Source: Eubacteriales bacterium (GTDB lineage Bacteria; Bacillota; Clostridia; Oscillospirales; Oscillospiraceae). From it: a stretch of DNA of 21,695 nucleotides. The DNA is taken from the NCBI GenBank assembly GCA_030528965.1, contig JAUMXS010000002.1, positions 1 through 21,695 of the forward strand. Reading direction: 5' to 3'. Each line of letters opens with the position of its first letter. Position 1 is the stretch's first letter. The notes under the pieces were generated by a model, which was given only the letters and a program-made list of their open reading frames with translations, made no database searches and was not told the DNA's origin. A program made the position numbers and the translations under genes. Below are positions 76 through 14,361 of this stretch, one piece after another.

Positions 76-228
76 TTATGTGAGGATAGCATTTTCAATG
101 CAGCGGGACGCATAGGTAGCAAGTCGCACTCCCCGATCCGGGCGATAGGTGGATACGCCCTTGATAAGTCCGATCGTTCCGATCGATATCAGATCATCCT
201 GATCGCCGTCCGGGGTATAGTATTTCTT
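76..228 (-). CDS. sigK: SigK middle fragment (sigma-70 region 2), disconnected from its N-terminus
   Basis: This codes for the sigma region 2 segment of the late mother-cell factor sigma-K: KKYYTPDGDQDD, LISIGTIGLIKG and LATYASRCIEN can be read, which is sigma-K-like. It has no start codon or ribosome binding site of its own; in frame it simply continues upstream into the element end. Joining base 223 to base 14162 of the N-terminal piece gives ...HIIKK-YYTPDGDQ... without a frame change. After 'RCIENAIL' the frame meets Thr and then TAA (76-78). A complete SigK has over 100 more residues (regions 3 and 4), and none are visible in any frame to the window edge. Loss of similarity at IENAIL coincides with the B. 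subtilis skin insertion point (IENEI|LM), so a second intervening element is likely. Identity as sigK is secure; the reason for its premature end is inference. Confidence 0.85.
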   Translation of the reverse strand, partial: KKYYTPDGDQDDLISIGTIGLIKGVSTYRPDRGVRLATYASRCIENAILT

Positions 229-253
229 GAATATCTGAAGCAAAAGACCAATT
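224..253. repeat. Left attachment half-site of the sigK element
   Basis: Core TTCTT (plus strand) at 224-228 is followed by 11 bases and then arm GCAAAAGACCAATT at 240-253. The arm is repeated inverted at 14140-14153. With the excised circle closed, the two arms would be 24 bases apart, and the exact midpoint falls on the AA of the core AAGAA. That is the expected position of the 2-bp crossover overlap of a serine recombinase. Confidence 0.75.
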
Positions 254-270
254 CCGCCGCTATAGCAGCA

Positions 271-302
271 CCCCCGCCGTGTATCGTATTACACAGCGGG
301 GG
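271..302 (-). terminator. GC-rich hairpin ending the antiporter operon
   Basis: CCCCCGC at 271-277 pairs with GCGGGGG at 296-302. One C/A mismatch follows, then GTGT (279-282) pairs with ACAC (291-294), with an 8-base loop. It lies 28 bases past the stop of the last antiporter gene and just inside the element end. On the minus strand the following sequence is not a U-run (TGCTGCTATA); the plus-strand side is T-richer (TGTTGTTTGT). It may therefore be a weak terminator of the operon or an insulator between the operon and the sigK middle piece. Confidence 0.6.
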
Positions 303-330
303 TGTTGTTTGTATATGGGCAAAGCCCATG

Positions 331-2388
331 TTATTTATGCAGGATAATAAAAGCCAGCGCGAAAACCAGGCCCAAGCCTGCAAGCATAAGACCGAAGCCA
401 AAGGATTGCCAGATGCCCTCTTCCGGCACAGGATCATCCTCATACTTGGCAAAGTGATAATCGTAGGGGATTTCCTCCAGGCTGGGCCGCGGAGTGTATT
501 CCCGTCCCGTCAGGGAAACGATCATCTGCACGATCTGTGTTTTCAGACGACCGCAGCCGCGCGCAGCAGCAGCGGGGATCTCATGGAACAGGATCCGGAA
601 TATGACCTGATCCAGACAGACGGCGATCAGCTGGATAGCCTTGGCCAGAAGATCGATAAGCAGGAGTACACCGCGGTCAAGACAGCCGGCAATCAGCTGG
701 AAAGTCTTGGACAGGAGATCGATAAGCGGACGATAGATCCCGTATTCGATGCTGCACCATTTGGGGATCGGATCGATATACCGGTCCTTGCGGATCAGCA
801 GCCTGCGCACGACGAGCAGATAAACAAGCGCACCGATAGTCAGAGAGATCACAGCGCCCTTGAGGTTGATCCACGCGAAATAATGTACGGCATGCGCCGG
901 AGCTTCCCCATGGAAGAATGACCGCGCGAAGGCCGACACACCTTCCATCGTTTCATGCGGCAAAGCACCGAGTACCGGCATGATGGCCACATACAGCAGC
1001 AGCACGACAGCCGAAGTCCGCGCGATATATTTCCCGGTTTTCCAATGCGGATGCTCGTTCTTCTCCACAAAAATGCAGCAGAACAGCTTCAGCATATACG
1101 CGAATGTAAGTCCGCCCGCAAAGAGGAACATCCATTCCAGCACGGAATAAAGCCAGGCCTGCTCACCGGCGATATGGATATACTCCACAATGCTCTCATG
1201 CAGCAGCGTCTTGCTCACATAACCGTTCAGGAACGGCAGGCCCGCCAGACTGAGCATGGGGATGCCCATGATGACGGCCAGAAGAGGCTTTCCGCGTCCA
1301 AATCCGCGAATATCATTGAGATCATAGGAATGCGTGGAAAGATGGATAACGCCGGCGCACGGGAACAGCACCATCTTAATGAGCGAGTGATTCATGATAT
1401 GCAGGATGGTTCCTTCCACTGCCAGGGCATTATGGTGTCCCAGCAGGCACTGCATGGAAATGCCTACCACGACGAAACCGATCTGCGAGACCGAAGAACA
1501 GGCCAGCGTACGTTTCAGGTCCACCGAGCAGACCGCCAGTGCCGCGCCGAGCACCATGGTAATAGCGCCAAAAACCGCCAGCATCTGGCCCCACTGTGCA
1601 TCATGAAGGAACAGGGTGGTGGACAAAACGGCAACGCCGTAAATGCCGGTTTTCGTAATGACGCCGGAAAGCACGGCCGAGGCCGGAGCCGGGGCTGCCG
1701 GGTGAGCGGTGGGCAGCCAGATATGAAGCGGGAAAGCGCCCGCTTTGGCGCCGAAGCCGACCAGGATCAGAAGCCCGCAGACCCAGAGGATGGATTTATC
1801 CTCCATCGCTTCTGCGGCATGTGCCAGTTCGGAAATGTTCAGAGTGCCAAGCGTATGATACAGCACAAAGATACCCGACAGCGTCACGAGGCCGCCGATG
1901 ACCGCAACGGCAAGATAGGTAACGCTTGCCTTCAGTGCATCTTCTTCCTCCGTCTGCACAACGGCGACATAGGAAGTGAACGACATGATCTCAAAGAAGA
2001 TAAACGTCGTATAGAGGTCAACGGACAGAAATACGCCCATGACCGCGCCCAAAGTAAGAAGCCAGAACACATAATAGCGGTTTCTGCGCTTGACATGAGC
2101 AAAGTATTCACGCGAAAGCAGCGTAGACGCCAACCAGCCGGATGCGGTCAGGAAGGCCATGACCGTACGGAAATGTCCGGAGGCAAAACCGATCCCCAGA
2201 CCGGCAAAGCCGGGAATGCTCAGGGAGATCTCTCCCGCTTTCATAATGAGGAGCGTGAGGAGCATTTCCAGAATTGTGACAGCGAGAACAAATGCATCAC
2301 GGCCCTTCTTGGATTTACGGCCGATCACATAGCTCACAGGTCCGCAGGCCATCGGTACAAACACCACCGCGGCCAACATGCCATTCAT
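331..2388 (-). CDS. Antiporter subunit, NuoL/NuoM/MrpA-type, with long C-terminal extension
   Basis: A 685-residue integral membrane protein of the proton-conducting transporter family (NuoL/M/N, MrpA/D). Family landmarks are visible: the TM5 glutamate at E133 in FFEIMSF, the TM7 lysine near K215 in GAKAGAFPLHIWLPTAHP, and PAPASAVLSG with ITKTG. It is about 190 residues longer than its three paralogues in the operon. The extra part (from about residue 490) holds further hydrophobic segments, an amphipathic stretch with a 22-residue tandem duplication (about residues 549-592), a cytoplasmic-looking charged region and a final transmembrane helix. The extension recalls the long lateral C-terminus of NuoL/MrpA but does not contain the MrpA MbhD/MbhE domains, which are separate genes upstream here. 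The start has AGGAGG 8 bases ahead of ATG at 2388. Last gene of the operon. Confidence 0.85.
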   Translation of the reverse strand: MNGMLAAVVFVPMACGPVSYVIGRKSKKGRDAFVLAVTILEMLLTLLIMKAGEISLSIPGFAGLGIGFASGHFRTVMAFLTASGWLASTLLSREYFAHVKRRNRYYVFWLLTLGAVMGVFLSVDLYTTFIFFEIMSFTSYVAVVQTEEEDALKASVTYLAVAVIGGLVTLSGIFVLYHTLGTLNISELAHAAEAMEDKSILWVCGLLILVGFGAKAGAFPLHIWLPTAHPAAPAPASAVLSGVITKTGIYGVAVLSTTLFLHDAQWGQMLAVFGAITMVLGAALAVCSVDLKRTLACSSVSQIGFVVVGISMQCLLGHHNALAVEGTILHIMNHSLIKMVLFPCAGVIHLSTHSYDLNDIRGFGRGKPLLAVIMGIPMLSLAGLPFLNGYVSKTLLHESIVEYIHIAGEQAWLYSVLEWMFLFAGGLTFAYMLKLFCCIFVEKNEHPHWKTGKYIARTSAVVLLLYVAIMPVLGALPHETMEGVSAFARSFFHGEAPAHAVHYFAWINLKGAVISLTIGALVYLLVVRRLLIRKDRYIDPIPKWCSIEYGIYRPLIDLLSKTFQLIAGCLDRGVLLLIDLLAKAIQLIAVCLDQVIFRILFHEIPAAAARGCGRLKTQIVQMIVSLTGREYTPRPSLEEIPYDYHFAKYEDDPVPEEGIWQSFGFGLMLAGLGLVFALAFIILHK
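611..742 (-). repeat. 66-bp tandem duplication inside the last antiporter gene
   Basis: Bases 611-662 reappear at 677-728 with about 8 differences in 52, a period of exactly 66 bp (22 codons). At protein level LIDLLSKTFQLIAGCLD is followed by LIDLLAKAIQLIAVCLD. The frame is kept and the unit looks like an amphipathic helix, so an amphipathic region has been doubled. Confidence 0.8.
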
Positions 2389-2424
2389 ATTAAACTCCTC
2401 CTCTCTCAGATATTATTTGCCGCA

Positions 2425-3888
2425 CTATCCGATCACCAGCTGCTCAATCAGCTCGACTGCGCCGTTTGCGGCCAGACCCAGGCAGACAGCAATCGCGGAA
2501 ATGCCGATAAGCGGCACCGTCATGCGGTAATTGGGATCAAAGCGGCCGGAACGCGGGAAGGTCTCCGGAAGCGTTCTGTTTTTTCTCGGGAAGAACGCCA
2601 GCATGATGATCTGCGTCAGATACAGCGCCGTCAGAATGGCGGAAATGATGAGCGCCACTGCGCCGCAGCAGCCCAGTACAGTACCGGATTCCACAGCGGA
2701 GGTCGCGAGCATCCACTTGCTGGTAAAGCCCGCCATCGGGGGCACACCCATGATTCCGAGCGAAGCCACGATAAATGTGCCGAATACCACCGGCATCAGC
2801 CGACCGCAGCCCTCGATCTCCGGAACGTAGTCACGGTGCATCTTATAGTGTACGGCACCGACATCAAAGAACAGCGTAATCTTAAAAAATGCATGCGCAA
2901 CCATGTGCACCAATGCTGCAACAAGCGCAGTCGGGGTCATGATGGTAACGCCCAGCAGAATATAAGACAGGTTACTGACCGTCGACCAGGCCAGTCGTCT
3001 CTTAAGATGCTTGGTTCGAAGGGCTCTCGCGGAGGCATACACGATGGTAAGGATGGCAGCACCCATCGCCACGTTCTGTGCCCAGGTCCCGTTCAAAAGC
3101 TCAGGCCCAAAGCCATACCAGGTGATACGCATGACAGCGAACACACCGGCTTTGACAACCGCGACAGCATGGAGCAGCGCAGTGACAGGGGTAGGCGCCA
3201 CAGACGCCCGCAGAAGCCATTTATGGCCGGGCAGTACAGCCGCTTTCACGCCGAAGCCAAAGAAGCCCAGCAGATACACAAGCAAAAGCATGTTGGTATC
3301 CATTCCCTCCGGCCGGACGATCGATCCGCCGAAACGGAAGGTCGGGCCGCCGAACTGAATGAGGAAGACCATGGCGATAAAGCCCAGCGCCGCGCCGCTC
3401 ATGGAGTAAATAAGATATACCTTGCCGGCATACCGGGCCTTGTTGTTAAGCTCATGCATAACAAGCGGCAGTGTACTGAGGGTCAGGAGCTCATAAAAGA
3501 GATACATGGTCATAATGTTGGCGGAAAATGCAATCCCCAACGTAACACCGAAAGCGGCCATGTAAAACGCGAAGAAGCGGTCCTTCCCATGCTCGGGACT
3601 CATGTATTCATTGGCATAGAGGGTCGCCAAAGGCCAAAGGATCGAAACCATGGTTCCGAAAATGCAGCCAAGTCCATCGATTTGAAAACTCAGTGTCAGA
3701 TTTTCACCCAGACGAATGAGCGTGAGAGGGGGTTCCCCCTGCATAGTAAAGATCGAAGCGATCGAAAGCACCGCCGTGATACACGATACGATCATCACAT
3801 AAATCCGCCGTGTACGATCTTCGGACTTGATCAGGAACAGCGCAAATCCCATCAACATGGGAAAAAAGACAGCCGAAAGCATCAGCAT
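2425..3888 (-). CDS. Antiporter subunit, MrpD/NuoL-like
   Basis: A 487-residue polytopic membrane protein of the NuoL/M/N-MrpA/D family that would form one proton or cation half-channel of the complex. The TM5 glutamate is E133 (FYELLTL) and the TM7 lysine about K215 (GVKAAVLPGHKWL). The following motif, SVAPTPVTALLHAVAVVKAG, is the NuoL/MrpA-type APTPVSA..HA..VKAG version, unlike the two paralogues upstream with PAPASAVLSG. This subunit is therefore the most NuoL-like in its channel motif. The start is ATG 3888 with GGAGG 12 bases upstream, a longer spacing than usual; ATG 3882 is the alternative. It sits 34 bases after the previous gene and 36 before the next, all in one transcript. Confidence 0.85.
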   Translation of the reverse strand: MLMLSAVFFPMLMGFALFLIKSEDRTRRIYVMIVSCITAVLSIASIFTMQGEPPLTLIRLGENLTLSFQIDGLGCIFGTMVSILWPLATLYANEYMSPEHGKDRFFAFYMAAFGVTLGIAFSANIMTMYLFYELLTLSTLPLVMHELNNKARYAGKVYLIYSMSGAALGFIAMVFLIQFGGPTFRFGGSIVRPEGMDTNMLLLVYLLGFFGFGVKAAVLPGHKWLLRASVAPTPVTALLHAVAVVKAGVFAVMRITWYGFGPELLNGTWAQNVAMGAAILTIVYASARALRTKHLKRRLAWSTVSNLSYILLGVTIMTPTALVAALVHMVAHAFFKITLFFDVGAVHYKMHRDYVPEIEGCGRLMPVVFGTFIVASLGIMGVPPMAGFTSKWMLATSAVESGTVLGCCGAVALIISAILTALYLTQIIMLAFFPRKNRTLPETFPRSGRFDPNYRMTVPLIGISAIAVCLGLAANGAVELIEQLVIG

Positions 3889-3922
3889 GAGAGGGGGCCA
3901 CCTCCTTTCTGATTAAAATCTT

Positions 3923-5389
3923 TTAAAACAGGGAATTCACTACCGCCTGAACGGCAGGACGAACGATGTCGGGGAACATACCAAGAACCAGCGCCGCCAC
4001 GGTCAGGGAACACAGAGCGATCCACATGAGAGGTGTGGTCTTTTTCTCAAAAATTCCCTCTGCCTGGAAATCGGCACCGGGGAAGAATCCGTTCGTCACG
4101 ATGGAGAGCAGATATCCCGCAGTCAGCAGGGCGGACAGCATCAGAATACCAATACCGACATATCCCAGCGTGCCGACACCCGACTCCATGGCGCCCTGTG
4201 CCAGCATCCATTTCGCTGCGAAACCGCCCGTGGGAGGAATACCTACCAGCGAAAGCGAGCTCAGGGTAAAGCACCACATCGTGATGCCGTACACTCTGCC
4301 AACGCCGCGCAGATCGGAGACCAGCGTCTTATGGGTTTTGAAAATGAGGGCACCCGCCGCCATAAAGAGGGTGTTCTTGGCCAGTGCATGGAAAATCGCC
4401 TGGAAAAGTGCGCCTTCCATCGCCGTAGCGTCCATCAGCATCAGACCGAATATAACATATGACACCTGACTGACCGTGGAATAAGCCAGTCTCTTTTTCA
4501 GGATATTCTCTCTCAATGCCAGTGTGGAGCCCATAAAGATCGTCGTAAGCGCCAGAACAAGCACCGCGGTCTGAGCCCAGGTTCCGATGAGGAATTCCCA
4601 GCCGAAAATGAAATATGTAACGCGGATGATGGCCAGGATACCCATCTTCGTGATGAGACCGGACAGCACGGCGGAAGCCGGGGCCGGAGCTTCGGGATGG
4701 GCAATGGGCAGCCAGGCATGAAGCGGGAACATACCGGCTTTGCAGCCGAAACCAATGATCATCACCAGGAAAACACCGAGAAGAAGTTCCCGGTTTTCCA
4801 TGGCAGCAGCAGTGTCCAACATGCCGCCGGCCGTGAACAGATCGGTCGAGCAGTAGCCCTGCAGCACAAACCAGCCCAGAAGGCCCAGAGCTGCGCCCGC
4901 GACAGAATAAGTCAGATACCGCCAAGCAGCGGCAACTGCCTTTTTCGTTCCGGTATGAAGTACGAGCGGGAACGAGCACAGGGTCATCATCTCATAGAAC
5001 ATATACAGGGTGATGAGGTTTCCGGAGAAACAAACACCGATCAGCGCACTCAGCGTAATGAGATAAAAAGAAAAGAAGCGCTCTCTGTTCTTTTCGTGAG
5101 TCATATACTCGAAGGCAAAAATGGCCACAAAAAGCCAGATCAGCGAGATAAGCACGGCAAACAGGCGGCTCACCGCATCGGCCTGCAGAACGATCCGGAC
5201 ACTTTCGGTCAGGGTAAGCAGTGTCAGAGTCGGAATATCATGAAGCAGAGTCGGGATCAGTGACGCCAACTGTGCGACCATGATACCCACGACCGCAAAC
5301 CGGCGCACAGTCTGTGCGTGCAGGCGCAGGACAATCAAACCGCCAATAAGCGGGCAAAGAATCGGCAGAACCAGCATGATCGGGGACAA
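3923..5389 (-). CDS. Antiporter subunit, MrpD/NuoM-like
   Basis: A 488-residue polytopic membrane protein of the proton-conducting transporter family. Visible landmarks are E133 in FYEMMTLCSF (TM5), about K217 in GCKAGMFPLHAWLPIAHP (TM7), PAPASAVLSGLITKMG, and GFAAKWML, the late-helix lysine motif. The start is taken as TTG at 5389: GAGG is 8 bases upstream of it, while the first ATG (5377) would have a 20-base spacing. It is 29 bases downstream of the preceding paralogue. Three to four such subunits in one operon suggest a multi-channel ion pump module like Mbh/Mbs or complex I, but no redox subunits are present. Ion specificity (Na+ or K+ against H+) cannot be read from the sequence. Confidence 0.87.
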   Translation of the reverse strand: MSPIMLVLPILCPLIGGLIVLRLHAQTVRRFAVVGIMVAQLASLIPTLLHDIPTLTLLTLTESVRIVLQADAVSRLFAVLISLIWLFVAIFAFEYMTHEKNRERFFSFYLITLSALIGVCFSGNLITLYMFYEMMTLCSFPLVLHTGTKKAVAAAWRYLTYSVAGAALGLLGWFVLQGYCSTDLFTAGGMLDTAAAMENRELLLGVFLVMIIGFGCKAGMFPLHAWLPIAHPEAPAPASAVLSGLITKMGILAIIRVTYFIFGWEFLIGTWAQTAVLVLALTTIFMGSTLALRENILKKRLAYSTVSQVSYVIFGLMLMDATAMEGALFQAIFHALAKNTLFMAAGALIFKTHKTLVSDLRGVGRVYGITMWCFTLSSLSLVGIPPTGGFAAKWMLAQGAMESGVGTLGYVGIGILMLSALLTAGYLLSIVTNGFFPGADFQAEGIFEKKTTPLMWIALCSLTVAALVLGMFPDIVRPAVQAVVNSLF

Positions 5390-5418
5390 CTATCTCACCT
5401 CACTTTGATACAACTGCA

Positions 5419-6912
5419 TCAGAGCAGCGCCAGCCCCTGATAGATAAGGCTGGTAATGGGCTGTATGACAACACCCAGAATGACATTAATGACAAGGAAG
5501 CAAAGGATCGCGAAAGTATGTTCACTGCGTTTCTCAGAAACCACGGTCAGCTTCGTCTCATCCGCATGACGGCCCCATATGGCCAGAATGGCCGGGATAT
5601 AGTACATAGCGTTGAGCACCGAGCTGACAGCCAGTCCAAGCAGCGCCGGGATCATCTGCCAGCCGCCGCCGGAGATCGCCGCAGTCGCTATACTGTACTT
5701 GGCAGAAAAACCGGCCAGAAGCGGAAGTCCGCAGAGGGACAGGCCGCCAACAGTAAAGCCCAGGCCGGCAATAATATCCTGCCGCGCCGCACCGCGCAGT
5801 GCCCCAAAATCATGCGAACCGCCGCGGACGCGGATCAACGCACCGGCACTGACGAAGATCATGGGCTTGGTAAAGGCATGAGCGATCACCTGGAAACAGG
5901 CCGCCGCCACGCCCGCCCGGGTACCAAGACCAAAGGCAAGGAAAATATAGGCGATCTGTGCCGTAGAAGAATAGGCAATCATCCGCTTGACATCCTCCTG
6001 CCGCATAGCAGCAAGAGACGCATAGATCATGCCGCAAAGTCCCAGGATAAACAGCAGTTCCTGAATAAACATATTCAATATTACGCTGCCGCCGAAAACG
6101 CGGATGATCAGCTTGATAACCAGAACAATATATCCCTTAAGAACCAATCCGGAAAGGATCGCACTGGCAGACGTGGTGGCATTGGAATGCGCATCCGGCA
6201 GCCAGGAATGGAATGGGAACTGCGCGCTTTTCACAGCGAGACCCACGATCATCAGCAGAGCCGAAACCGTCAGCGGGAGAACGTATTCCCCTTTCGCCGT
6301 CATCTCCGTGATGGACTCGTGCAGGCTCTCCATCAGCAGGTTGCCGGTGATGGCGTACAGGACGGAAATACCCAGAAGCACCAGTCCGGAACCAATGCCA
6401 CTGAACACCAGATAGCGAATGGCTGCTGCGATGGATTTTCCGCTTTCCTTGGCGGCCACAGCCACACAGGCCGTGATGGCGGAAATTTCAATAAACACAT
6501 ATGCGGTGAAAAGGTCGTTCGTATAGACCATGGCAAGCAGCGAGGCATACAGAAGCTGCATCAACAGGAAATATCTTCCCTGCGCTTCCTCACGGATCTC
6601 CTTCCGCATATCGACAGCACCGCCTGTCATGGACAGGAACATCACAAGACTGAATACCAGAGCCAGCAGAGCTTCCAGCGGGCCGGCCTTCAGTTCGTTG
6701 CCCCACGGTGCCGGAAAATGACCCATCATAAAGGTGAAACTCTCTCCGGTTGAAGCCAGCTGCACCAGCAGGACAGCAGAGAGCGCAGCGATGATCACCT
6801 GCACGGCCTGTGTAACGGCCAGAGCCCAGCCCCGCCGGGACACAAAGGGCAGCGCGATCGCACTCAACAACGCCAGAAACAGGCTGATAAACGGAATGTT
6901 AAATGCTAACAT
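5419..6912 (-). CDS. mrpD: Antiporter subunit MrpD/MbhH (MnhD)
   Basis: A 497-residue membrane protein that follows mrpC directly, the canonical place of MrpD/MbhH. Family signatures are the TM5 glutamate at about E142 (FIEISAI), the TM7 lysine at about K228 (VKSAQFPFHSWLPDAH), SASAILSGLVLKG, and GFSAKYSI near the end. MrpD is essential for Na+/H+ exchange in Mrp systems. The start is assigned to ATG 6912; GGAGG lies 11 bases upstream. A GTG at 6924 in the same frame overlaps the ribosome binding site and is less likely. This is the first of four antiporter-like genes in a row. The two that follow could be duplications of it or ancient NuoM/N-like partners. Confidence 0.9.
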   Translation of the reverse strand: MLAFNIPFISLFLALLSAIALPFVSRRGWALAVTQAVQVIIAALSAVLLVQLASTGESFTFMMGHFPAPWGNELKAGPLEALLALVFSLVMFLSMTGGAVDMRKEIREEAQGRYFLLMQLLYASLLAMVYTNDLFTAYVFIEISAITACVAVAAKESGKSIAAAIRYLVFSGIGSGLVLLGISVLYAITGNLLMESLHESITEMTAKGEYVLPLTVSALLMIVGLAVKSAQFPFHSWLPDAHSNATTSASAILSGLVLKGYIVLVIKLIIRVFGGSVILNMFIQELLFILGLCGMIYASLAAMRQEDVKRMIAYSSTAQIAYIFLAFGLGTRAGVAAACFQVIAHAFTKPMIFVSAGALIRVRGGSHDFGALRGAARQDIIAGLGFTVGGLSLCGLPLLAGFSAKYSIATAAISGGGWQMIPALLGLAVSSVLNAMYYIPAILAIWGRHADETKLTVVSEKRSEHTFAILCFLVINVILGVVIQPITSLIYQGLALL

Positions 6913-6947
6913 ACAGAGCTTCACCTCCTCTTTTTCAAACTATTCTC

Positions 6948-7346: not shown

Positions 7347-7350
7347 CGTT

Positions 7351-8343
7351 CTACTCCTCCTTCTGCACAAACAATGTATAAAAGGTATACATCGTGCAGG
7401 CAACAATAATGCCTACACAGATATTCAGCGGCAGGATAAATCCCGCACTGATGATATCTCCCGGAGTTCCCTTGGGGATCTCCCAGCCAACGTGGTTGGC
7501 GCCCGTAAAGAAAGAATATCCCTTCATGGCCCCATAGGCCAGAAGACACCCAACGGTCAGCTTTGTCAGACGATCCGGTGTCAGGATATCATTCATGCGC
7601 TCCTCACCGAGGAGCAGTGCTCCGAGAATAAAGCCGCAGCCGAGTACCGTTCCGCCGGAAAATCCGCCGCCCGGGCTGATATGTCCGTTCAGCACGACAT
7701 AAATGCCATACACGAAAACAGCAGGCAGTATAATACGTCCCATCCGGTTCAGAATGAAGTCCGTTTCCCGCGCAACATGACCGCAGGCGCGCTTGGATCT
7801 GCGCATAAGCAGGACCGTGCTCATAGCCGCGGCAAAAAGAACCGTGGATTCGCCGAACGTATCAAACGCACGGTAATCGAGGATCATACCGGCAACCAGG
7901 TTGACAGCGCCTGTCTCTTCCACGCCCTTATCAATGTAGCGATCCACCACCGAATTGATCATCGGACTATCGGGATCACCAAAAGCAGGCATATACAGCA
8001 CAGTGGCGATCAGCGCACACATCAGAGCCGCCACGATCAGGACCGCAAGTACACGGTATACGCGAATGGCACGCCGCAGAGTGCCCGGTTTCCTGTGCTT
8101 TTTCCGAGCGGGAGCCGCAGGCTCTTCCGCCCCGTGGCCGTGTTCACTCTTTTCGCCCGAAGTCTCTCTCCGGTATTCCTCAAAGGAGACAGACTCGTTC
8201 TTTTTCAGGTATTCCAGATAGGCAACAAGCTCCGCATGATCCGGATCCACCGGCTCTTCCTGCAAGAGGGAGGGATCCTCCGCCTTTGCCCATTGCATCA
8301 GGCGCTCAAACGTGCTGTTATTTTCAGGACGGTCATCTTTCAT
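7351..8343 (-). CDS. mrpB: MbhE-MrpB fusion antiporter subunit with hydrophilic N-terminal extension
   Basis: A 330-residue protein in three parts. Residues 1 to about 95 are charged and cytoplasmic-looking (acidic, then basic KKHRKPG), with no counterpart in standard Mrp subunits that I know. Residues about 96-180 are an MbhE-type domain (one helix, then FGDPDSPMINSVVDRY and the ETGAVNLVAGMILDYRAFDTFGE motif), equivalent to the very C-terminus of MrpA. Residues about 200-328 are MrpB/MnhB proper (VYGIYVVLNGHISPGGGFSGG). MbhE and MbhF are adjacent separate genes in Pyrococcus Mbh; here they form one polypeptide. The start overlaps the preceding gene by 11 bases. Assignment of the two known domains is firm; the role of the extension is unknown. 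Confidence 0.88.
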   Translation of the reverse strand: MKDDRPENNSTFERLMQWAKAEDPSLLQEEPVDPDHAELVAYLEYLKKNESVSFEEYRRETSGEKSEHGHGAEEPAAPARKKHRKPGTLRRAIRVYRVLAVLIVAALMCALIATVLYMPAFGDPDSPMINSVVDRYIDKGVEETGAVNLVAGMILDYRAFDTFGESTVLFAAAMSTVLLMRRSKRACGHVARETDFILNRMGRIILPAVFVYGIYVVLNGHISPGGGFSGGTVLGCGFILGALLLGEERMNDILTPDRLTKLTVGCLLAYGAMKGYSFFTGANHVGWEIPKGTPGDIISAGFILPLNICVGIIVACTMYTFYTLFVQKEE

Positions 8344-8590
8344 CCTCGTCCACTCCTCTCAGCGCGTTTACCTTCCGCAGGGCCAGGAAGAACAACAGGC
8401 TCGTGACGCCCGCACCCACAGCCGCTTCCGTGATCGCAAGGTCCGGCGACTGGAGCAGGAACCAAAGGATCGCCATAACGGAGGAATATGACATGAAAAC
8501 AATGACTGCGGCCAAAAGGTTCTTGGTGCGCACCGCAGCCAGTGCACAGAATATCAAAAAGAGCAGAAGCAGAATTTCCAGAAGAATCAT
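8333..8590 (-). CDS. MbhD-like (DUF4040) antiporter subunit
   Basis: An 85-residue membrane protein of the MbhD/DUF4040 family, corresponding to part of the MrpA C-terminus and related to NuoJ. It has three hydrophobic helices, with the conserved AVRTKNLLAAVI, DLAITEAAVGAGVTSLLFFLAL pattern. The acidic E in LAITEA is the conserved intramembrane residue of this family. ATG 8590 overlaps the mrpG stop in ATGA. Order and content here (E-F-G-MbhD-MbhE/B-C-D) match the antiporter half of archaeal Mbh rather than classical bacterial mrpABCDEFG. Confidence 0.87.
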   Translation of the reverse strand: MILLEILLLLFLIFCALAAVRTKNLLAAVIVFMSYSSVMAILWFLLQSPDLAITEAAVGAGVTSLLFFLALRKVNALRGVDEDER

Positions 8591-8916
8591 AATTCCTGTT
8601 CCCCCTCTCCGGCCACGCGGTCGGGCTCGATATTCCGCCCGGTGATAAGTTCCATGCGGGCAAGAAGATGGGAGGAAACGGGGTTCGTCAGCCACAGGAT
8701 CACAAGCAGAATGACGATTTTCAGGGTATGCGCGGTAAATCCGCACAGGACGACCGCACCGGCCAGCATAAGCAGAACACCCAAAGTATCCGTGATCGCA
8801 CCGGCATGGATCCGCTCCAGTGCATCCCGGAACCGGAACAGACCAAGAACGGAGACAGCTATGACAAATAACCCGAGACTTATCAGGATGACAGCGATCG
8901 CGATTCGGACTGTCAC
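8587..8916 (-). CDS. mrpG: Antiporter subunit MrpG/MbhC
   Basis: A 109-residue protein with three hydrophobic segments and the MrpG hallmark LFRFRDALERIHAGAITDTLGVLL followed by LKIVILLVILWLTNPVSSHLLARM, a close match to the family (FPDVYTRLHA...TDT, then TxPxxxHxxARAA). It forms part of the small-subunit bundle with MrpE and MrpF. It starts with GTG, overlapping the mrpF stop in GTGA at 8913-8916, so translation is coupled. Length is typical for MrpG. Confidence 0.93.
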   Translation of the reverse strand: MTVRIAIAVILISLGLFVIAVSVLGLFRFRDALERIHAGAITDTLGVLLMLAGAVVLCGFTAHTLKIVILLVILWLTNPVSSHLLARMELITGRNIEPDRVAGEGEQEL

Positions 8917-9215
8917 TGCTTTTCCCCCTTTCTTTGTCTGTGACGGCTGACCGTTACACGACTCAGCAGTGCGATGGCCAGCAAGTTCAAAAGGCCGTAC
9001 AAAATGGCAACGTCTATAAGATAGCTCTCACCCAGCAGGCAGGAGAGCATACATATCATCAGAATGACAAGCGTACAGATTTCGTTGAGCGCCACGAGCC
9101 GGTCGGTATACCGGGGACCGCGTATGGCCAGGAACAGGCAAAGCAGAATGCATATTCCCAGCAAGCACAACACGACAGTTAAAAAGAGATTCAGTACCGT
9201 TGTCGGTTCAGTCAT
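8913..9215 (-). CDS. mrpF: Antiporter subunit MrpF/MbhB
   Basis: A 100-residue protein with three hydrophobic helices. The family motif RGPRYTDRLVALNEICTLVILMI (usually RGPxxxDRVxAxD) and DVAILYGLLNLLAIALLSR (usually DIALVYALLxFxxTVAxAR) are clear. The start is ATG 9215, 8 bases after GGAGG; an upstream in-frame GTG at 9224 touches the ribosome binding site and is rejected. It overlaps the end of mrpE by 8 bases. Confidence 0.93.
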   Translation of the reverse strand: MTEPTTVLNLFLTVVLCLLGICILLCLFLAIRGPRYTDRLVALNEICTLVILMICMLSCLLGESYLIDVAILYGLLNLLAIALLSRVTVSRHRQRKGEKQ

Positions 9216-9675
9216 TCTTCTCACCCTCCAATCGGCACAGCTTTTCCACGAATCCGCTGTCCTCCAGCCCCTCGGCCATCTCGGAACGAAGTGCGTAGAC
9301 GCAGATCTCTTCCTCTCCCAGTGCGACCGTCACCGTTCCGGGTGTCAGCGTGATGGAATTGGCCAGAGCGACCTTGGCGGTCTCCCCTTTTGTCTTCGGC
9401 GAGAACCACACGATCTTCGGCCGCCTGCTGTCGGGCTTCAGAATGAGACGCATCACCTGAAGGTTGGACAGCACGATCTGTCCCACCAGATAGAACAGAT
9501 AGCAAACGATCCCCGGCAGCCGCTTAAAAAAGAGCACTTCTTTCCGGATATTGATATCCAAAAGACGATGGATCGCAAAGGTAACGGCCACCGAGATAAC
9601 GAGGCCGAACAGGACAATCTCCAAAGTCACTTTTCCGTTCAGGGCCAGCCAGAACAGGAACAGCAGGATAATCAA
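9208..9675 (-). CDS. mrpE: Antiporter subunit MrpE/MbhA
   Basis: The first gene of the operon, 155 residues. Two or three hydrophobic N-terminal helices are followed by a cytoplasmic domain with LANSITLTPGTVTVALGEEEICVYAL, the conserved MrpE 'xxNxITLTPGTVT' motif. The usual hydrophobic start is recovered with TTG at 9675, which has GGAGG about 9 bases upstream. A longer frame starting at 9762 would add hydrophilic residues without support. The length agrees with MrpE (about 158). It opens a ten-gene transcript ending at the hairpin at 271-302. The upstream region holds a candidate promoter and a Rex/Crp-like palindrome. Confidence 0.92.
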   Translation of the reverse strand: MIILLFLFWLALNGKVTLEIVLFGLVISVAVTFAIHRLLDINIRKEVLFFKRLPGIVCYLFYLVGQIVLSNLQVMRLILKPDSRRPKIVWFSPKTKGETAKVALANSITLTPGTVTVALGEEEICVYALRSEMAEGLEDSGFVEKLCRLEGEKND

Positions 9676-9771
9676 GAAGCACCCCTCCTTCTGAATAATG
9701 TTTGCCGAATCATTGCAAAGCGACCTCCCGAACGGGGCCGCTCTCTGACGAATCTTATGCATCGTTTTTGC

Positions 9772-9800
9772 ATCATACCATAAATGCTTCTAAAAAGGAA
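9772..9800 (-). promoter_or_regulatory. Candidate sigma-A promoter of the antiporter operon
   Basis: On the minus strand TATGAT (9777-9772) is a good -10. Seventeen bases upstream, TTCCTT (9800-9795) is a poor -35, so the promoter may need an activator. Transcription would start near 9765, giving a leader of about 90 bases before mrpE. That leader contains an imperfect hairpin (AGCGGCC...GGTCGCT, about 9719-9742). Confidence 0.45.
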
Positions 9801-9805
9801 GCCTT

Positions 9806-9823
9806 TTGTGACAGGTTTCACAA
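9806..9823. promoter_or_regulatory. Rex/Crp-like palindromic operator
   Basis: TTGTGACAGGTTTCACAA contains the perfect inverted repeat TTGTGA-N6-TCACAA. It differs at one position from the Rex consensus TTGTGAA-N4-TTCACAA and also fits the Crp-family TGTGA-N6-TCACA. It lies directly upstream of the candidate -35 of the antiporter operon, centred about 50 bases before the predicted start. This is the main feature, with the two divergent promoters, of the 312-base non-coding stretch 9676-9987. Confidence 0.55.
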
Positions 9824-9938
9824 TTTTTCTTGGCAAAATCAGTTCCCTCTCTACCATTCCTCATGATCCGCCGAAGAAAATGAATTATTTTATGCGTTAT
9901 TCATTCCTCCGATGCATATTCCGTACTCCTGGGTGTGC

Positions 9939-9967
9939 ACATATTCCGGGCACCGCCTTCATACTCT
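9939..9967 (+). promoter_or_regulatory. Candidate sigma-E (mother-cell) promoter for the recombinase genes
   Basis: ACATATT (9939-9945), a 14-base spacer, then CATACTCT (9960-9967). B. subtilis sigma-E promoters have the form KMATATT, 14-15 bases, CATACAnT. The match is 6 of 7 in the -35 and all but one defined base in the -10. The start would fall near 9974, giving a leader of only about 14 bases with AGGAGG (9975-9980) at its very 5' end. Mother-cell transcription of the skin recombinase spoIVCA by sigma-E is established in B. subtilis. Confidence 0.5.
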
Positions 9968-9987
9968 GGGAGCGAGGAGGCATGACC

Positions 9988-10218
9988 ATGAATGAGCTTG
10001 ATCGGGAAATCGGCCTTGCCTTGCTGAAATGTCTGCACCGGAGGGAGCTGATCTCCGAAAAGACTTTTCTGGCCGCCGGCAGTTCCCGTTCTTTTGAAAA
10101 AAACCGGTTTATTGCTTATGGGAAATCCGACAAAACAGACTCTGCCGGGGAGGGCAGCACACTGAATGACGATCCGAAAACTGAGAGAGGAACTGCGGAG
10201 AGGGAAAACCATTTATGA
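9988..10218 (+). CDS. Small recombinase-linked ORF (helical, SHOCT-like start)
   Basis: A 76-residue ORF that starts at ATG 9988 with AGGAGG 7 bases upstream. The first 25 residues (ELDREIGLALLKCLHRRELIS) form a short amphipathic helical segment like the SHOCT-type small ORFs that precede serine recombinase genes in Clostridia. The rest is polar and of low similarity to anything I recognise. It overlaps the recombinase start (10166) by 53 bases in another frame, so translation of the recombinase is probably coupled. Possible roles are regulation or excision-directionality assistance, but nothing in the sequence proves this. Distant upstream starts in the same frame lack a ribosome binding site. 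Confidence 0.55.
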   Translation: MNELDREIGLALLKCLHRRELISEKTFLAAGSSRSFEKNRFIAYGKSDKTDSAGEGSTLNDDPKTERGTAERENHL

Positions 10219-11785
10219 TCTTCCTCTCCGCGTCACTTTTTATGCCCGTGTTTCCACCGAAAAACCGGAACAGCAGGGCAGTCTTGAACACCAGATCCAA
10301 TACTACACGGACTTCATATGTAAAAACCCGAACTGGAGCTATGTGCCCGGATACACAGACGAAGGAATATCGGGTACCTCGACCCGTAAGCGTGAGAACT
10401 TTCTGCGGATGATCTCCGACGCCCATGACGGCCGTTTTGACTTTATCATCACCAAGGAGATATCTCGTTTTTCCCGCAGCACGCTCGACAGCATCCTGTA
10501 TACGCAGGAACTGCTGGACGCAGGTGTCGGCGTTTTTTTCCAGAACGACAACATCAACACACTGGACACAGACAGCGAATTTCGTCTGGTCGTCATGGCC
10601 GGAGTAGCACAGGATGAAGTCCGGAAGCTGTCCGAACGACTGAAATTTGGTTTTCGGCAGTCCATCCGGAACGGTCATGTGCTCGGAAACGACCGGATAT
10701 GGGGATATGACAAGAAAGACTGTAAACTTACCGTCATTCCGGAACAGGCTGAAGCCGTCCGCCTGATCTTTGAACTCTATGCCGCCGGGAACTGCGGGAT
10801 ACGCAAAATCGCCCATGAGCTGACCCTCCGCGGATATACCAGCCTCAGGGGAAATGATTTCAATCCGCTTACTATCCGCAACATTCTTATGAATCCCAAA
10901 TACAAAGGATGGTACTGCGGCGGAAAGACCCGATCTCTCGACTATCGAACAAAGAAAAACGAAACACTGGACGAGAGCGAATGGATCATGTACCCAGACC
11001 CTCAAATTCCGGCCATTGTTTCGGAGAAACTCTGGGACCGGGCCAATGCCATTCTCAGAGAACGCAGAAATCATGCTAAAGCCAAAGAGGCCGGTTACCG
11101 CAAACAATATCCCTACAGCGGAAAGATACTCTGCGAAAAACACGGCTTATCATTTCACCGTCAGGCCTTCCGGACAAAAAGCGGTCAGACCGAATACTGG
11201 CGCTGCCGGGCTTACCGCCAGGGCGGAAAGGAAAGCTGTCCCCTCCCCTCCGTTCGCACACGGGAAATAAACCTTGTTCTGGCCGAACTCTTTCAGACGA
11301 CCGTCAAACACAAAGAGGAGATCATCCGTCTTGTGCTGGCCGGTCTTGCCGACGCGGAACGCAGGACCGAACCTGCCCCGCAGCTTCAGAGGATCCGGTC
11401 ACAGATCGAACAGCTGCACCGCAAAAAGGACAAACTTCTGGAACTGAGCACGGAAGGAGCGCTTTCCACGCAGGAATTTCAGGAGCGAAACGAACGCTTT
11501 AACAAACAGCTCACATTTTTGGAGCAGCAGCTTCCCGTCATACTGCAGTCGCAAAACGATCCCCCCTGCACAGACCTCGCTTTGCTGGAAAAAGCTCTTT
11601 GGGACGAACTGAACTTCACGAACGGCATCAGCCCGGAGATCGTCTCCGTCATTGCGGACAGTATCGTGGTGCTGGAAGAAAGCAGCGCACAGGAACTTCA
11701 TCTGAAGATCCGATTGCGGTCAGGAAAGACGATTTTCGTCACCTTTGACCGCCGTACCATGGGTTTTTCCTGTGCTTCCTCCTGA
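10166..11785 (+). CDS. Large serine recombinase, probable sigK-element excisionase
   Basis: 539 residues and apparently intact. The N-terminal resolvase domain has the catalytic serine S30 in FYARVSTE, the YTDEGISGTSTRKR loop (about 63-76) and EISRFSRST with R101 and R104. A Recombinase domain follows (about 180-290; GYDKKDCKLTVIPEQAEAV, NPKYKG). Then comes a zinc-ribbon-like segment (about 315-360; CEKHG...WRC...C) and a coiled-coil (about 400-460). The C-terminus ends in short beta-strands (DSIVVLEESS...LKIRLRSGK). This is the SpoIVCA/TndX-type layout. It is the only recombinase in the window and lies inside the sigK interval, behind a sigma-E-like promoter, so it is the best candidate to excise the element. 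Its position about 2.4 kb from the nearer border is unusual, since skin recombinases normally sit at the border. It has GGGAGGG about 12 bases before ATG. Confidence 0.92.
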   Translation: MTIRKLREELRRGKTIYDLPLRVTFYARVSTEKPEQQGSLEHQIQYYTDFICKNPNWSYVPGYTDEGISGTSTRKRENFLRMISDAHDGRFDFIITKEISRFSRSTLDSILYTQELLDAGVGVFFQNDNINTLDTDSEFRLVVMAGVAQDEVRKLSERLKFGFRQSIRNGHVLGNDRIWGYDKKDCKLTVIPEQAEAVRLIFELYAAGNCGIRKIAHELTLRGYTSLRGNDFNPLTIRNILMNPKYKGWYCGGKTRSLDYRTKKNETLDESEWIMYPDPQIPAIVSEKLWDRANAILRERRNHAKAKEAGYRKQYPYSGKILCEKHGLSFHRQAFRTKSGQTEYWRCRAYRQGGKESCPLPSVRTREINLVLAELFQTTVKHKEEIIRLVLAGLADAERRTEPAPQLQRIRSQIEQLHRKKDKLLELSTEGALSTQEFQERNERFNKQLTFLEQQLPVILQSQNDPPCTDLALLEKALWDELNFTNGISPEIVSVIADSIVVLEESSAQELHLKIRLRSGKTIFVTFDRRTMGFSCASS

Positions 11786-11820
11786 GCGTTTTTCCCTTCG
11801 TATATCCGTCTCATCAACAA

Positions 11821-11850
11821 GCCGGAAACCGCTCCCGCGTAAACTCCGGC
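11821..11850 (+). terminator. Weak hairpin after the recombinase gene
   Basis: GCCGGA (11821-11826) pairs with TCCGGC (11845-11850) across an 18-base loop, followed by ATGTTTTGATAAATTTTTG. The stem is short, so termination is uncertain. It lies between the recombinase and the pyk promoter. Confidence 0.3.
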
Positions 11851-11866
11851 ATGTTTTGATAAATTT

Positions 11867-11906
11867 TTGACAAAGTCTTGACAAAGCCATTACCTCTTTA
11901 TACAAT
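11867..11906 (+). promoter_or_regulatory. pyk promoter with tandem TTGACAAAG repeat
   Basis: TTGACA (11878-11883), a 17-base spacer, then TACAAT (11901-11906): a near-consensus sigma-A promoter. The -35 is part of an 11-bp direct repeat, TTGACAAAGTC (11867-11877) and TTGACAAAGCC (11878-11888), head to tail with no gap. The start would be near 11913, 43 bases before the pyk ATG. Confidence 0.8.
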
Positions 11907-11955
11907 TAATGTCGGATAAGAAAGAAAATGTGTTATTTGTGTAATGGAGGATCTT

Positions 11956-13368
11956 ATGAGAAAGACAAAGATCATATGCACTATTGGCCCGGCCAGTGAA
12001 ACAGAAGAAGTCCTGACCCAAATGTGTTTGGCCGGCATGAATGTGGCCCGTCTGAACTTTTCGCACGGTACATATCCCGAGCATGAAAAGCGAATCAAGC
12101 TGATCAAACATGTGCGCGAAAAGCTGGGCCTTCCCATCGCCATCCTGCTGGATACCAAGGGTCCGGAATACCGTATTCGTTCCTTTGCGACCGATAAAGT
12201 AACGATTGAGAAAGGCGCAGCATTCACTTTTACTACCGACGAGGTCGAAGGCGACAAGACCAGAGTCTCTGTGAATTACAAAAACCTGCATAATGAGCTG
12301 AATCCCGGCGACACTGTCACTGCCAATAACGGTATGCTGGTGTTCGAGGTTCAGGAAGTGGAAGGGCACAACATTCACTGCATCTGCAAGGTAGGCGGTG
12401 TTCTTTCCAACCGCAAGAGCATGTCCTTCCCCAACAAAGTCATGTCCGGCCCCTATCTCTCCGAACAGGACAAATCCGACATCCTTTTCGGTATCAAAAA
12501 CAGTGTCGACTTTATCGCGGCATCCTTTGTTTCCACCGCGCAGGATGTAAAAGATATTCAGGAATTCCTGAATGCCAACGGCGGCAGTGACATTGAGATC
12601 GTTGCCAAGATCGAAAACCGCGCCGGCGTGGATAACGTTGTGGAGATCTGTGAAAACTGCAGCGGCATCATGATCGCCCGCGGCGACCTGGGTGTGGAAA
12701 TTCCCTATGTGGAAGTTCCTTCCGTGCAGAAGAAACTGACGAAGATCTGCCGCATGATGGGCAAACGCGTCATCACCGCGACCGAGATGCTGGAATCCAT
12801 GAGCCAGAATCCTCGCCCCACCCGTGCGGAAATCTGCGACGTCGCCAATGCCGTTTATGACGGCACTGCCTGCGTCATGCTGTCCGGCGAATCCGCCGCC
12901 GGAAAATATCCCGTGGAAGCCGTAAAGGCCATGGCCCAGATCGCCGAGTATACGGAAGATCAGACCGAGTACAAGCAGCAGTTCCTTTCCACCGAGTTTG
13001 TCGGTCATAACAATCTCGACTGTATCTCCCACGCCGTCTGCGCCATTGCTCTGGATGTGAATGCCAAGGCGATCGTAGTTTGCTCCGTTTCCGGCAAAAC
13101 CGCTCTGCTGGTTTCCCGCTTCCGTACCCCGGTGAACATCATCGGCATGACGACCGATGTCAAGATCTGGCGCCGTCTTTCCATGAGCTGGGGCGTCACT
13201 CCCGTTATGGCAGAGCAGTTCCCCAGCATGGACGTCATGTTCTACTATGCCAAGAAGGCTACGAAAAAGGCTTTGGATCTGAAGCCCGGCGACAACATCG
13301 TCCTGACCGGCGGCCCGATCAACGGAGTCTCCGGCAACACCGACACCATCAAAATCGACGTGATCTGA
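11956..13368 (+). CDS. pyk: Pyruvate kinase
   Basis: Converts phosphoenolpyruvate and ADP to pyruvate and ATP, the last step of glycolysis, in the cytoplasm. It is 470 residues in the short form without a C-terminal PEP-utiliser domain. Active-site elements are R32/N34/S36 (ARLNFSHG), DTKGPE at 66-71 (the T..K..E set of potassium-dependent enzymes), catalytic K218 in AKIEN, and E242-region ARGDLGVEIP. PRPTRAE and LSGESAAGKYPVEAV are also present. Two sites differ from the usual: ATEMLESM (normally ATQMLESM) at 275-282, and NNG at 124-126 where most enzymes have DDG. The start is ATG 11956, with GGAGG at 11946-11950 lying inside the upstream ATG (11944) that would otherwise be chosen. It has its own strong promoter and terminator. 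It lies within the sigK element, which is unexpected for a central metabolic gene; a second pyk elsewhere in the genome is likely but unseen. Confidence 0.95.
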   Translation: MRKTKIICTIGPASETEEVLTQMCLAGMNVARLNFSHGTYPEHEKRIKLIKHVREKLGLPIAILLDTKGPEYRIRSFATDKVTIEKGAAFTFTTDEVEGDKTRVSVNYKNLHNELNPGDTVTANNGMLVFEVQEVEGHNIHCICKVGGVLSNRKSMSFPNKVMSGPYLSEQDKSDILFGIKNSVDFIAASFVSTAQDVKDIQEFLNANGGSDIEIVAKIENRAGVDNVVEICENCSGIMIARGDLGVEIPYVEVPSVQKKLTKICRMMGKRVITATEMLESMSQNPRPTRAEICDVANAVYDGTACVMLSGESAAGKYPVEAVKAMAQIAEYTEDQTEYKQQFLSTEFVGHNNLDCISHAVCAIALDVNAKAIVVCSVSGKTALLVSRFRTPVNIIGMTTDVKIWRRLSMSWGVTPVMAEQFPSMDVMFYYAKKATKKALDLKPGDNIVLTGGPINGVSGNTDTIKIDVI

Positions 13369-13438
13369 TCCCGGTTCACCTTCCGGATGCATTCTCCCCC
13401 AGGAGCCTTCCTCCGGGCGGAGAGACCGTAAAACAGTT

Positions 13439-13476
13439 AATCCGACCTATGATTGTATTCATAGGTCGGATTTTTT
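13439..13476 (+). terminator. Intrinsic terminator of pyk
   Basis: A perfect 14-bp stem: AATCCGACCTATGA (13439-13452) with TCATAGGTCGGATT (13459-13472), loop TTGTAT, followed by a run of six T (13471-13476). It serves the plus strand; the minus-strand side has no T-run. Confidence 0.92.
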
Positions 13477-13486
13477 ATAGACACAG

Positions 13487-14047
13487 TTATTTATTCGACG
13501 AATCGGGACATCGGACAATCCAGTCTTCCTTTTTTAAACAAGTGATATGTTCCGTTCTTACCTCGTTCAGCATAGAGCACGGAACTTTTTCCTTGGTATA
13601 TTGATATTGAAATCCGCATTTCTCCTGTACCCTCTTTGACTTGGTATTGCCGTCATAATACCCGCACCACACTTTTTCAAGATTCAATTCTTCAAAAGCA
13701 TGGCGAAGGACAACCTGTACAGCTTCGGGGATCAATCCTTGTCCCCAATACGGGACACCGATCCAGTATCCCAATTCTGCTTCTGTATCAGGGATCCCCA
13801 TGCGGCTTGCTTTGCCGATCATCAGTCCGATGCTTCCAACAGCACATCCCGTACATTTATCAACAACCGCATATGTTTCCGGGGCAGAAAGGACATTACG
13901 GATAACATCACGACTGTTTTCTATGCTTGTATGAACAGGCCATCCTGCAGCCGGTCCCACTTCGGGAGCACTCGCATATCTGTATAGGCTCTCTGCATCC
14001 GATTCTTCCCACGGGCAAAGAATCAGTCTCTTCGTTTTAAGAACCAT
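13487..14047 (-). CDS. GNAT-family N-acetyltransferase (RimJ/RimL-like)
   Basis: A 186-residue cytoplasmic acetyl-CoA-dependent acyltransferase. TKRLILCPWEESDAESLYRY is the usual start of RimJ/RimL-type GNATs. The acetyl-CoA loop is seen in YWIGVPYWGQGLIPEAV (about 93-109), followed by LNLEKVWCGYYDGNTKSKRVQEKCGF, the standard late-domain motif. The substrate cannot be told from sequence; relatives acetylate protein N-termini, ribosomal proteins or antibiotics. ATG 14047 has GGAGG 7 bases upstream. It is convergent with pyk and sits 114 bases inside the right element border. By eye it is more AT-rich than its neighbours, fitting a more recent arrival as element cargo. Confidence 0.88.
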   Translation of the reverse strand: MVLKTKRLILCPWEESDAESLYRYASAPEVGPAAGWPVHTSIENSRDVIRNVLSAPETYAVVDKCTGCAVGSIGLMIGKASRMGIPDTEAELGYWIGVPYWGQGLIPEAVQVVLRHAFEELNLEKVWCGYYDGNTKSKRVQEKCGFQYQYTKEKVPCSMLNEVRTEHITCLKKEDWIVRCPDSSNK

Positions 14048-14100
14048 CCGTATTCCTCCAAGTGCTTATTGATCGGTCTTCCTGCATACTATCATACGAA

Positions 14101-14361
14101 TCATAATGATACAAGAACTGGCAGTTTTCTCTCCCCTGTAATTGTCCTTTTGCTTTCATTCTTCTTAATAATATGAGCCACCAGGCGCAGGTTGTGTTCT
14201 ATGAGAATATTGCGCGCCTCCAGATCGCCTTCCAGCCAGCGCTCCACATATTCCCGTTCTTCCTCCGCACGCAGCGGATGCGGAAAGGTTCCTCCCGAAC
14301 CACCCAACCGCAGCATCAGAAACATATTGCTCAACAGCAGAAAGAAAGCCCCAGACAGCAC
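14101..14361 (-). CDS. sigK: Pro-SigK N-terminal fragment, interrupted by the element
   Basis: This encodes the start of the mother-cell sigma factor sigma-K. Residues 1-20 are the hydrophobic pro-sequence ([19 protein letters not shown]), which in B. subtilis is removed by SpoIVFB. Residues 28-67 are the sigma-K signature ([40 protein letters not shown]). After K67 (14163-14161) the frame enters element DNA and adds 19 unrelated residues before TGA at 14101. The start is GTG 14361 with AGGAGG 7 bases upstream. The fragment alone lacks most of region 2 and all of regions 3-4, so it cannot act as a sigma factor. Joined at AAGAA to base 223 it continues with YYTPDGDQDDLISIG. I could not find a convincing sigma-E promoter between the rsmE terminator and this start. 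Confidence 0.92.
14140..14166. repeat. Right attachment half-site of the sigK element
   Basis: Core TTCTT (plus) at 14162-14166; 8 bases inside it lies the arm AATTGTCCTTTTGC (14140-14153), the inverted counterpart of 240-253. Identity between arms is 12 of 14. Confidence 0.75.

Follow-up and report, generated by a model that had tools for sequence, protein, structure and literature searches.

In the genome of an Eubacteriales bacterium of the Oscillospiraceae (GenBank assembly GCA_030528965.1), the gene sigK is very probably cut at three sites, designated here A, B and C, by three separate skin-type elements, so that three excisions would be required before sigma-K can be made. Sites A and B lie on contig JAUMXS010000002.1 (C109), the whole of which, 21,695 nt, was analysed and is referred to here as the window; site C is represented on a second contig (C160) of the same 167-contig assembly, which is 71% complete. 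A single excised element in sigK is a textbook case of programmed DNA rearrangement in bacteria: under the control of SigE and SpoIIID, the skin element is released as a circle, and only in the mother cell.

Element A (13.94 kb) lies wholly within the window and is inserted after codon 65 of sigK (HII|KK), about 48 codons before the classical skin site. Exon 1 starts at a putative GTG codon at position 14361, preceded by AGGAGG, and its product has a hydrophobic, pro-SigK-like N-terminus. The two sigK pieces flanking the element are in order on the same strand, within the sigK coding region, and are contiguous to the residue, as 14361–14164 matches positions 8–66 and 225–79 matches positions 67–114 of TIGR02846 on the minus strand. 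Removal in silico of the 13,938 bp between the two AAGAA copies restores the sigK frame. Around this core the element ends form a 16-bp inverted repeat with 14 of 16 positions matching (AATTGGTCTTTTGCTT / AATTGTCCTTTTGCTT); none of 2,000 random 32-mer pairs drawn from the window scored as high, and the AAGAA join is therefore more than a chance coincidence. The original prediction, made from the sequence of the window, is confirmed in its observations: a sigK split in order, a shared AAGAA and a 13,938-bp removal restoring the frame. The uninterrupted sigK reading HIIKKYY, proposed as something to look for in related genomes, is present in relative L021.

Exon 2 is not the rest of the gene, a point passed over in the original prediction. 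It reads ...ATYASRCIENAILT-stop, terminating as CIENAILT-stop at a second junction, with the stop codon at 76–78 and the window ending 75 bases beyond; at the same place an uninterrupted relative reads ...CIENEILMYFRSQKK... This second break, site B, is the classical IENEI|LM site at codon 113 (CIEN|EIL), and its junction occupies positions 79–99. In relatives split at site B, exon 2 ends for example in CIENAIL, CIENAML or CIENATL, exon 3 starts for example with IANEILM or VANEILM, and the common core is AAATG. Because the half-site AAATGCTATCCTCACA at 79–94 is identical to that of the site-B element of locus L044, the ends of which form GTGAGGATAGC-AAATG-CTATCCTCAC, the last bases of the window must belong to a further element, element B, of which only one end is included.

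Site C, at about codon 211 (SRSYVS|RIEKRAL), emerges from the 3′ ends of sigK. Of 89 distinct ends in the loci examined, 66 read SRSYVSRIE, 5 read SRLE, 2 are unreadable and 16 are broken after SYVS, these last running into a related arm (TAATGTAA in 11 of them). Both sides of the junction are visible in L181 (Flavonifractor sp. An100), where the break is followed by about 7 kb that end in a large serine recombinase (LSR) of the family termed LSR-C; immediately behind this recombinase stands YVSRIEKRALGKLEEAMQGWRP-stop, which supplies the end that SigK lacks. The same arrangement is found on C160, on which LSR-C is followed by GACGCTATGTATCGCGG..., coding YVSRIEKTAIRKLREALEKAGT-stop (exon 4); this LSR-C is 73–76% identical to those of L181, L205 and L243. 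Since LSR-C and the last exon stand together on C160, sigK of this genome is broken at A, B and C. In a further relative, L199, exon 3 ends in GISRSYV-stop next to a different arm; the gene may be broken, or a further element may lie close to site C.

Table 1. Features of the window (positions on the forward strand).
Feature	Position	Strand	Details
sigK exon 1	14167–14361	−	65 codons, 195 nt up to the core; TIGR02846 positions 8–66, E = 1.3e-16
Site-A core AAGAA, exon 1 side	14162–14166	−	Direct repeat with the copy at 224–228
sigK exon 2	90–228	−	TIGR02846 positions 67–114; site-A core AAGAA at 224–228, site-B core AAATG at 90–94; junction alignments
attP-A half-site, exon 1 end of element A	14130–14161	−	Arm GAATGAAAGCAAAAGGACAATTACAGG...; inverted repeat with the other end; resembles arms in relatives
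attP-A half-site, exon 2 end of element A	229–260	−	Arm ...AATTGGTCTTTTGCTTCAGATATTC; the corresponding position in G030 and G031 has TTTTGCTTC
End of element B	1–89	−	attP-B arm CTATCCTCACA at 79–89; stop codon at 76–78; contig end at 1
LSR-A, large serine recombinase, 539 aa	10166–11785	+	PF00239 (Resolvase) 1.1e-29, PF07508 (Recombinase) 1.4e-22, PF13408 (zinc-ribbon) 2.2e-9
Small open reading frame, 76 aa, candidate recombination directionality factor	9988–10218	+	Overlaps the start of LSR-A by 53 nt
Mrp/Mnh-type cation/proton antiporter operon (cargo of element A)	331–9762	−	Profile matches
Pyruvate kinase (cargo)	11944–13368	+	TIGR01064, 1.3e-159
GNAT-family acetyltransferase (cargo)	13487–14047	−	PF13302, 2.1e-29

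A single new skin element at a novel site, as originally predicted, is very improbable, because the gene is also broken at B in the window and at C on C160. Element A is complete and well formed, and in this respect the prediction stands: it is a sigK-intervening, skin-like element with an LSR, upstream of the classical site, and LSR-A adjoins site-A pieces in relatives. What falls is the idea of one independent insertion, since exon 2 is broken again at 79–99 and exon 4 lies apart on C160. Site A is probably not a new insertion site either: it is widespread among relatives rather than a one-off, and, with 195 nt of exon 1 preceding the core, it is probably the site of island IV of Bacillus cereus biovar anthracis, which PMC10745906 places at sigK position 195 and describes as lacking phage genes and excised in sporulation; that the two numberings are equal is our inference. 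The earlier reading is right in kind and covers one third of the story. A complete sigK elsewhere in the genome would have spoken for a different account; none was found in the 71%-complete assembly, and the hits outside C109 are tentatively taken, on frame length and coverage, for other sigma factors, namely SigE (C125), SigA (C15) and SigG or SigF (C33).

Pieces wrongly joined in a fragmentary metagenome-assembled genome (MAG) could also produce such a picture, and the window is indeed an entire contig of a highly divided assembly, ending inside an element. An artefact of this kind, or an assembly join between the two sigK pieces, is nevertheless extremely improbable: the same junctions occur in many other assemblies, among them records not marked as MAGs (An200, An306, An100 and Oscillibacter sp. 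PC13), and two contigs hold exons 1–3 in order. On one of these, the MAG contig L252, the exons are separated by elements of 8.4 and 7.7 kb and join into a frame of 231 codons that shares 65% identity with an uninterrupted relative across 223 residues, in a join that was set by eye and is not among the best candidates of an automatic join search. The other, L255 from Anaeromassilibacillus sp. An200, carries elements of 6.0 and 6.2 kb, with the site-C arm following exon 3, and exon 4 stands beside LSR-C elsewhere in the same genome. The four An200 exons (194, 135, 298 and 96 nt) join to encode a 240-aa SigK with 58% identity to an uninterrupted relative across 214 residues. Three contigs of genome G272 hold, respectively, exon 1, an exon 2 with the site-B break, and exon 4 beside LSR-C, and in L218 exon 2 stands alone between LSR-A and LSR-B, the recombinase of site B.

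In relatives, every site is matched by an LSR family and by a set of att arms of its own, the arms surrounding a short core in sigK. All 20 loci of a first sample have LSR-A next to a sigK piece split at site A; they are the best 19 besides the window, plus G030, from a search in which 132 of 400 genomes matched (E ≤ 1e-60), in many cases through other recombinases. In a second sample, which overlaps the first and came from a separate scan of named genomes (the best 80 of 393 stretches encoding a relative), the 3′ end of LSR-A has a sigK piece no more than 250 nt away in 74 of the 80. The six exceptions are L250 and L217, in which the contig ends within LSR-A and 64 bases past it, respectively, L223, with exon 1 some 4.6 kb from LSR-A, L258, which is unexplained, and L185 and L191, described below. 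LSR-B adjoins a sigK piece at site B in all 20 loci inspected (32 of 400 genomes matched at E ≤ 1e-130). LSR-C matched 48 of 400 genomes at E ≤ 1e-190, including that of the window; the 32 loci examined represent 31 distinct places, two being the same, and in 29 of the 31 (21 by script, 8 by eye) LSR-C is followed by the last sigK exon, L264 and L285 being the exceptions. With an identity of only about 21–27% between them, LSR-A, LSR-B and LSR-C are, as judged by sequence, distinct and distantly related families.

The LSR-A frame can also run into sigK itself. In 21 loci examined for it, sigK DNA supplies the stop codon of LSR-A, and the C-terminus of the recombinase should consequently differ between the integrated and excised states; the LSR-A of the window, which lies away from the junction, lacks this feature. 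Three loci depart from the usual context. In L185 (2570–2610), LSR-A is joined to a sequence resembling attB-A that is not sigK, likely an off-target integration; in L191 (Flintibacter muris, 11560–11700), LSR-A is followed by a palindromic, attP-like sequence without sigK, which may be an unused attP. L087 (IMGVR_UViG_3300010163_002043, 8202–10006) is a contig filed as viral that carries LSR-A and an exon 2 broken at B; it may be an element of prophage type, or else bacterial DNA filed in the wrong place.

By analogy with known skin elements, element A would act as a developmental switch, and the excision of all three elements, its timing and its order can be predicted. In the mother cell, each recombinase together with a small directionality factor would recombine its own attL and attR, the elements would leave as circles, and the four exons would join into one pro-sigK frame; sigma-K would be made only after all three excisions, and the forespore would retain the split gene. 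For element A, the candidate factor is the small open reading frame overlapping the start of LSR-A (Table 1). All 79 loci compared have a homologue of it immediately before LSR-A (E ≤ 0.01; six of the 79 are seeds of the model, the window included); the same model matched none of 79 shuffled sets, 32 LSR-C loci or 20 LSR-B loci. Upstream of LSR-C, a different small open reading frame, alike from locus to locus (..VVHC..EILEESFRLFL.RIL..), is present in 7 of 8 loci inspected (L261–L265, L269 and L290) and is a candidate factor for site C.

Several observations weigh against a functional three-element arrangement in this genome. The small open reading frame upstream of its own LSR-C (L260) looks unlike those of relatives, and no conserved counterpart is evident upstream of LSR-B in the 8 loci inspected. 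Exon 3 was not found in the assembly and LSR-B has no match in it at E ≤ 1e-130, and for this reason only one side of site B and one side of site C can be observed here. LSR-A lies 2.4 kb from the nearest end of its element, as against its position adjoining sigK in most relatives; the pyruvate kinase and GNAT genes separate it from the exon 1 junction (11786–14161), and its displacement is perhaps due to an internal rearrangement or a later gain. The pyruvate kinase, for which no second match was found in the assembly at E ≤ 1e-40, may be the only one of the cell and would then be odd cargo for removable DNA. YabG, a sigma-K target, was likewise not found in the assembly.

Some of these points, namely the missing yabG, the position of LSR-A, the unseen exon 3 and the sheer number of breaks in one gene, would suit a lineage that has lost sporulation, with sigK disrupted by parasites and its pieces left as remnants. 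Decay of this kind is unlikely. Exons 1, 2 and 4 retain open frames, cores and paired arms; LSR-A and LSR-C, the two recombinases seen in the genome, both have full-length frames; SpoIIID is present, scoring over its cut-off; and the multiply split layout recurs in other assemblies, where the frames rejoin.

The combination of sites varies among relatives. Strain An306 of Flavonifractor sp. has the splits A and B, and An100 has A and C. Of the 80 LSR-A loci of the second sample, 51 show the end of exon 2, which is broken at B in 20 and intact in 31 (L224 was dropped, its exon 2 being cut by the contig end, and L253 was kept, broken at the same codon with an arm that was not recognized). The end of exon 3 is visible in 32 of the 80, with a site-C break in 10, an intact sequence in 21 and an unclear one in L199; seven of these rows were read by eye, four showing SRIEK (intact), two the site-C arm (split) and the last being L199. 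LSR-A points to exon 2 in 43 loci and to exon 1 in 31, so that element A occurs in both orientations. Its size ranges from about 5.0 to 55.8 kb in 12 genomes with both ends on one contig. For 81 LSR-A proteins, a quick tree requires at least 11 changes of orientation (74 rows) and at least 16 of site-B state (52 rows), although these counts are rough and do not distinguish gain from loss, as 28 of the 77 inner branches lack support and several long rows come together. No uninterrupted sigK is among the matches listed for 20 genomes searched; the full-length hits listed resemble SigE, at 40–48% identity, and the frame of one 60% hit, in G094, passes through two stop codons before exon 2.

The open reading frames scanned in element A match antiporter, pyruvate kinase, acetyltransferase and recombinase families. 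An antiporter operon and a pyruvate kinase are unusual housekeeping cargo for a skin element, and the antiporter subunit encoded at 331–2388 has no other match in the assembly at E ≤ 1e-120. They are not the usual cargo of element A, being found in none of 80 other LSR-A loci at E ≤ 1e-30 with flanks of up to 10 kb, and composition gives no sign of foreign origin, with a G+C content of 50–56% inside the element and 51–57% outside. If the pyruvate kinase is truly single, loss of element A from the vegetative genome would be costly, which would be a simple way to keep a skin element in place.

We propose, with about even confidence, that part of the Oscillospiraceae and their kin hold sigma-K under a three-key lock, composed of three recombinase systems with their own sites and directionality factors, all of which must act in the mother cell; close relatives would differ, after rapid change, in having 0 to 3 of the keys, and essential cargo could hold elements in place. 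The same anatomy would be produced if sigK were a safe landing gene, from which three families of elements excise harmlessly in the terminal mother cell, the splits being tolerated by the host and not a switch of its own; this is possible, though less probable than not. It would account for three distantly related recombinase families converging on one gene, for the frequent gain or loss of sites, for the varied cargo of the elements and for the range of sizes of element A. As the two accounts differ only on who gains, the anatomy fits both, but the host-like genes of element A, at host-like G+C content, suggest some domestication.

Among known systems, the skin of B. subtilis, like element A, interrupts sigK and carries a large serine recombinase; its recombination site contains AATGA, which overlaps the AAATG core of site B (PMC10745906). 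Its directionality factor Skr (64 aa) overlaps the start of spoIVCA by 101 nt (PMC6957869), a layout shared by the small open reading frame and LSR-A of the window. In B. subtilis there is one element at one site, whereas here sites A and C are used in addition, with the families LSR-A and LSR-C. The skin of Clostridioides difficile (CD1231, CD1234) is also a single element, an independent insertion into sigK excised with a small directionality factor, and is oriented opposite to that of B. subtilis (PMC5025042), just as element A occurs both ways; its deletion is reported to result in mistimed or failed sporulation (PMC3789829, PMC10745906). In B. cereus strains AH820, J7, J62 and biovar anthracis there is one element per gene, the AH820-type insertion at sigK position 423 marking yet another site (PMC10745906).

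Beyond these, the gin element of B. cereus ATCC10987, a non-phage intervening element with a serine recombinase and an extra factor, is a single element in a different gene, gerE (PMC5595907). Phages integrated inside sigK, in Alicyclobacillus MMB025 (core TCTC) and as phiS63 in C. perfringens, are said to form particles and occur one per gene (PMC13141910). The closest parallel in number is found in cyanobacterial heterocyst genes, of which 10 of 87 interrupted genes carry several elements, up to four in Rivularia nifD (PMC4874684); there, too, one developmental gene is cut by several elements, although the development and the genes are different. Two or three elements in one sigK were not found in the literature searched, which is weak evidence of absence, as subscription journals were sparsely covered.

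Three recombinase families thus share one gene, each at a site of its own; some genomes have one of them, some have two, and at least one strain genome (An200) has all three. If the elements behave like the known cases, three inserts, not one, would have to be out before a spore can be finished. The natural series of 0, 1, 2 and 3 elements makes the old question of what skin elements do for their host testable, and provides three recombinase–attB pairs that may work side by side. As exons of 96 and 135 nt would easily be overlooked by gene finders, a genome without an annotated sigK need not lack the gene.

Cargo of other kinds is found in relatives. The 5.1-kb element A of Oscillibacter sp. 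PC13 (L173) carries a hybrid-cluster (Prismane) protein and a Crp-type regulator at 3512–5955, and element B of An200 (L255, 11830–15879) carries an open reading frame of the chloramphenicol acetyltransferase family, an ADP-ribosylglycohydrolase, AraC and HTH regulators and a NUDIX protein.

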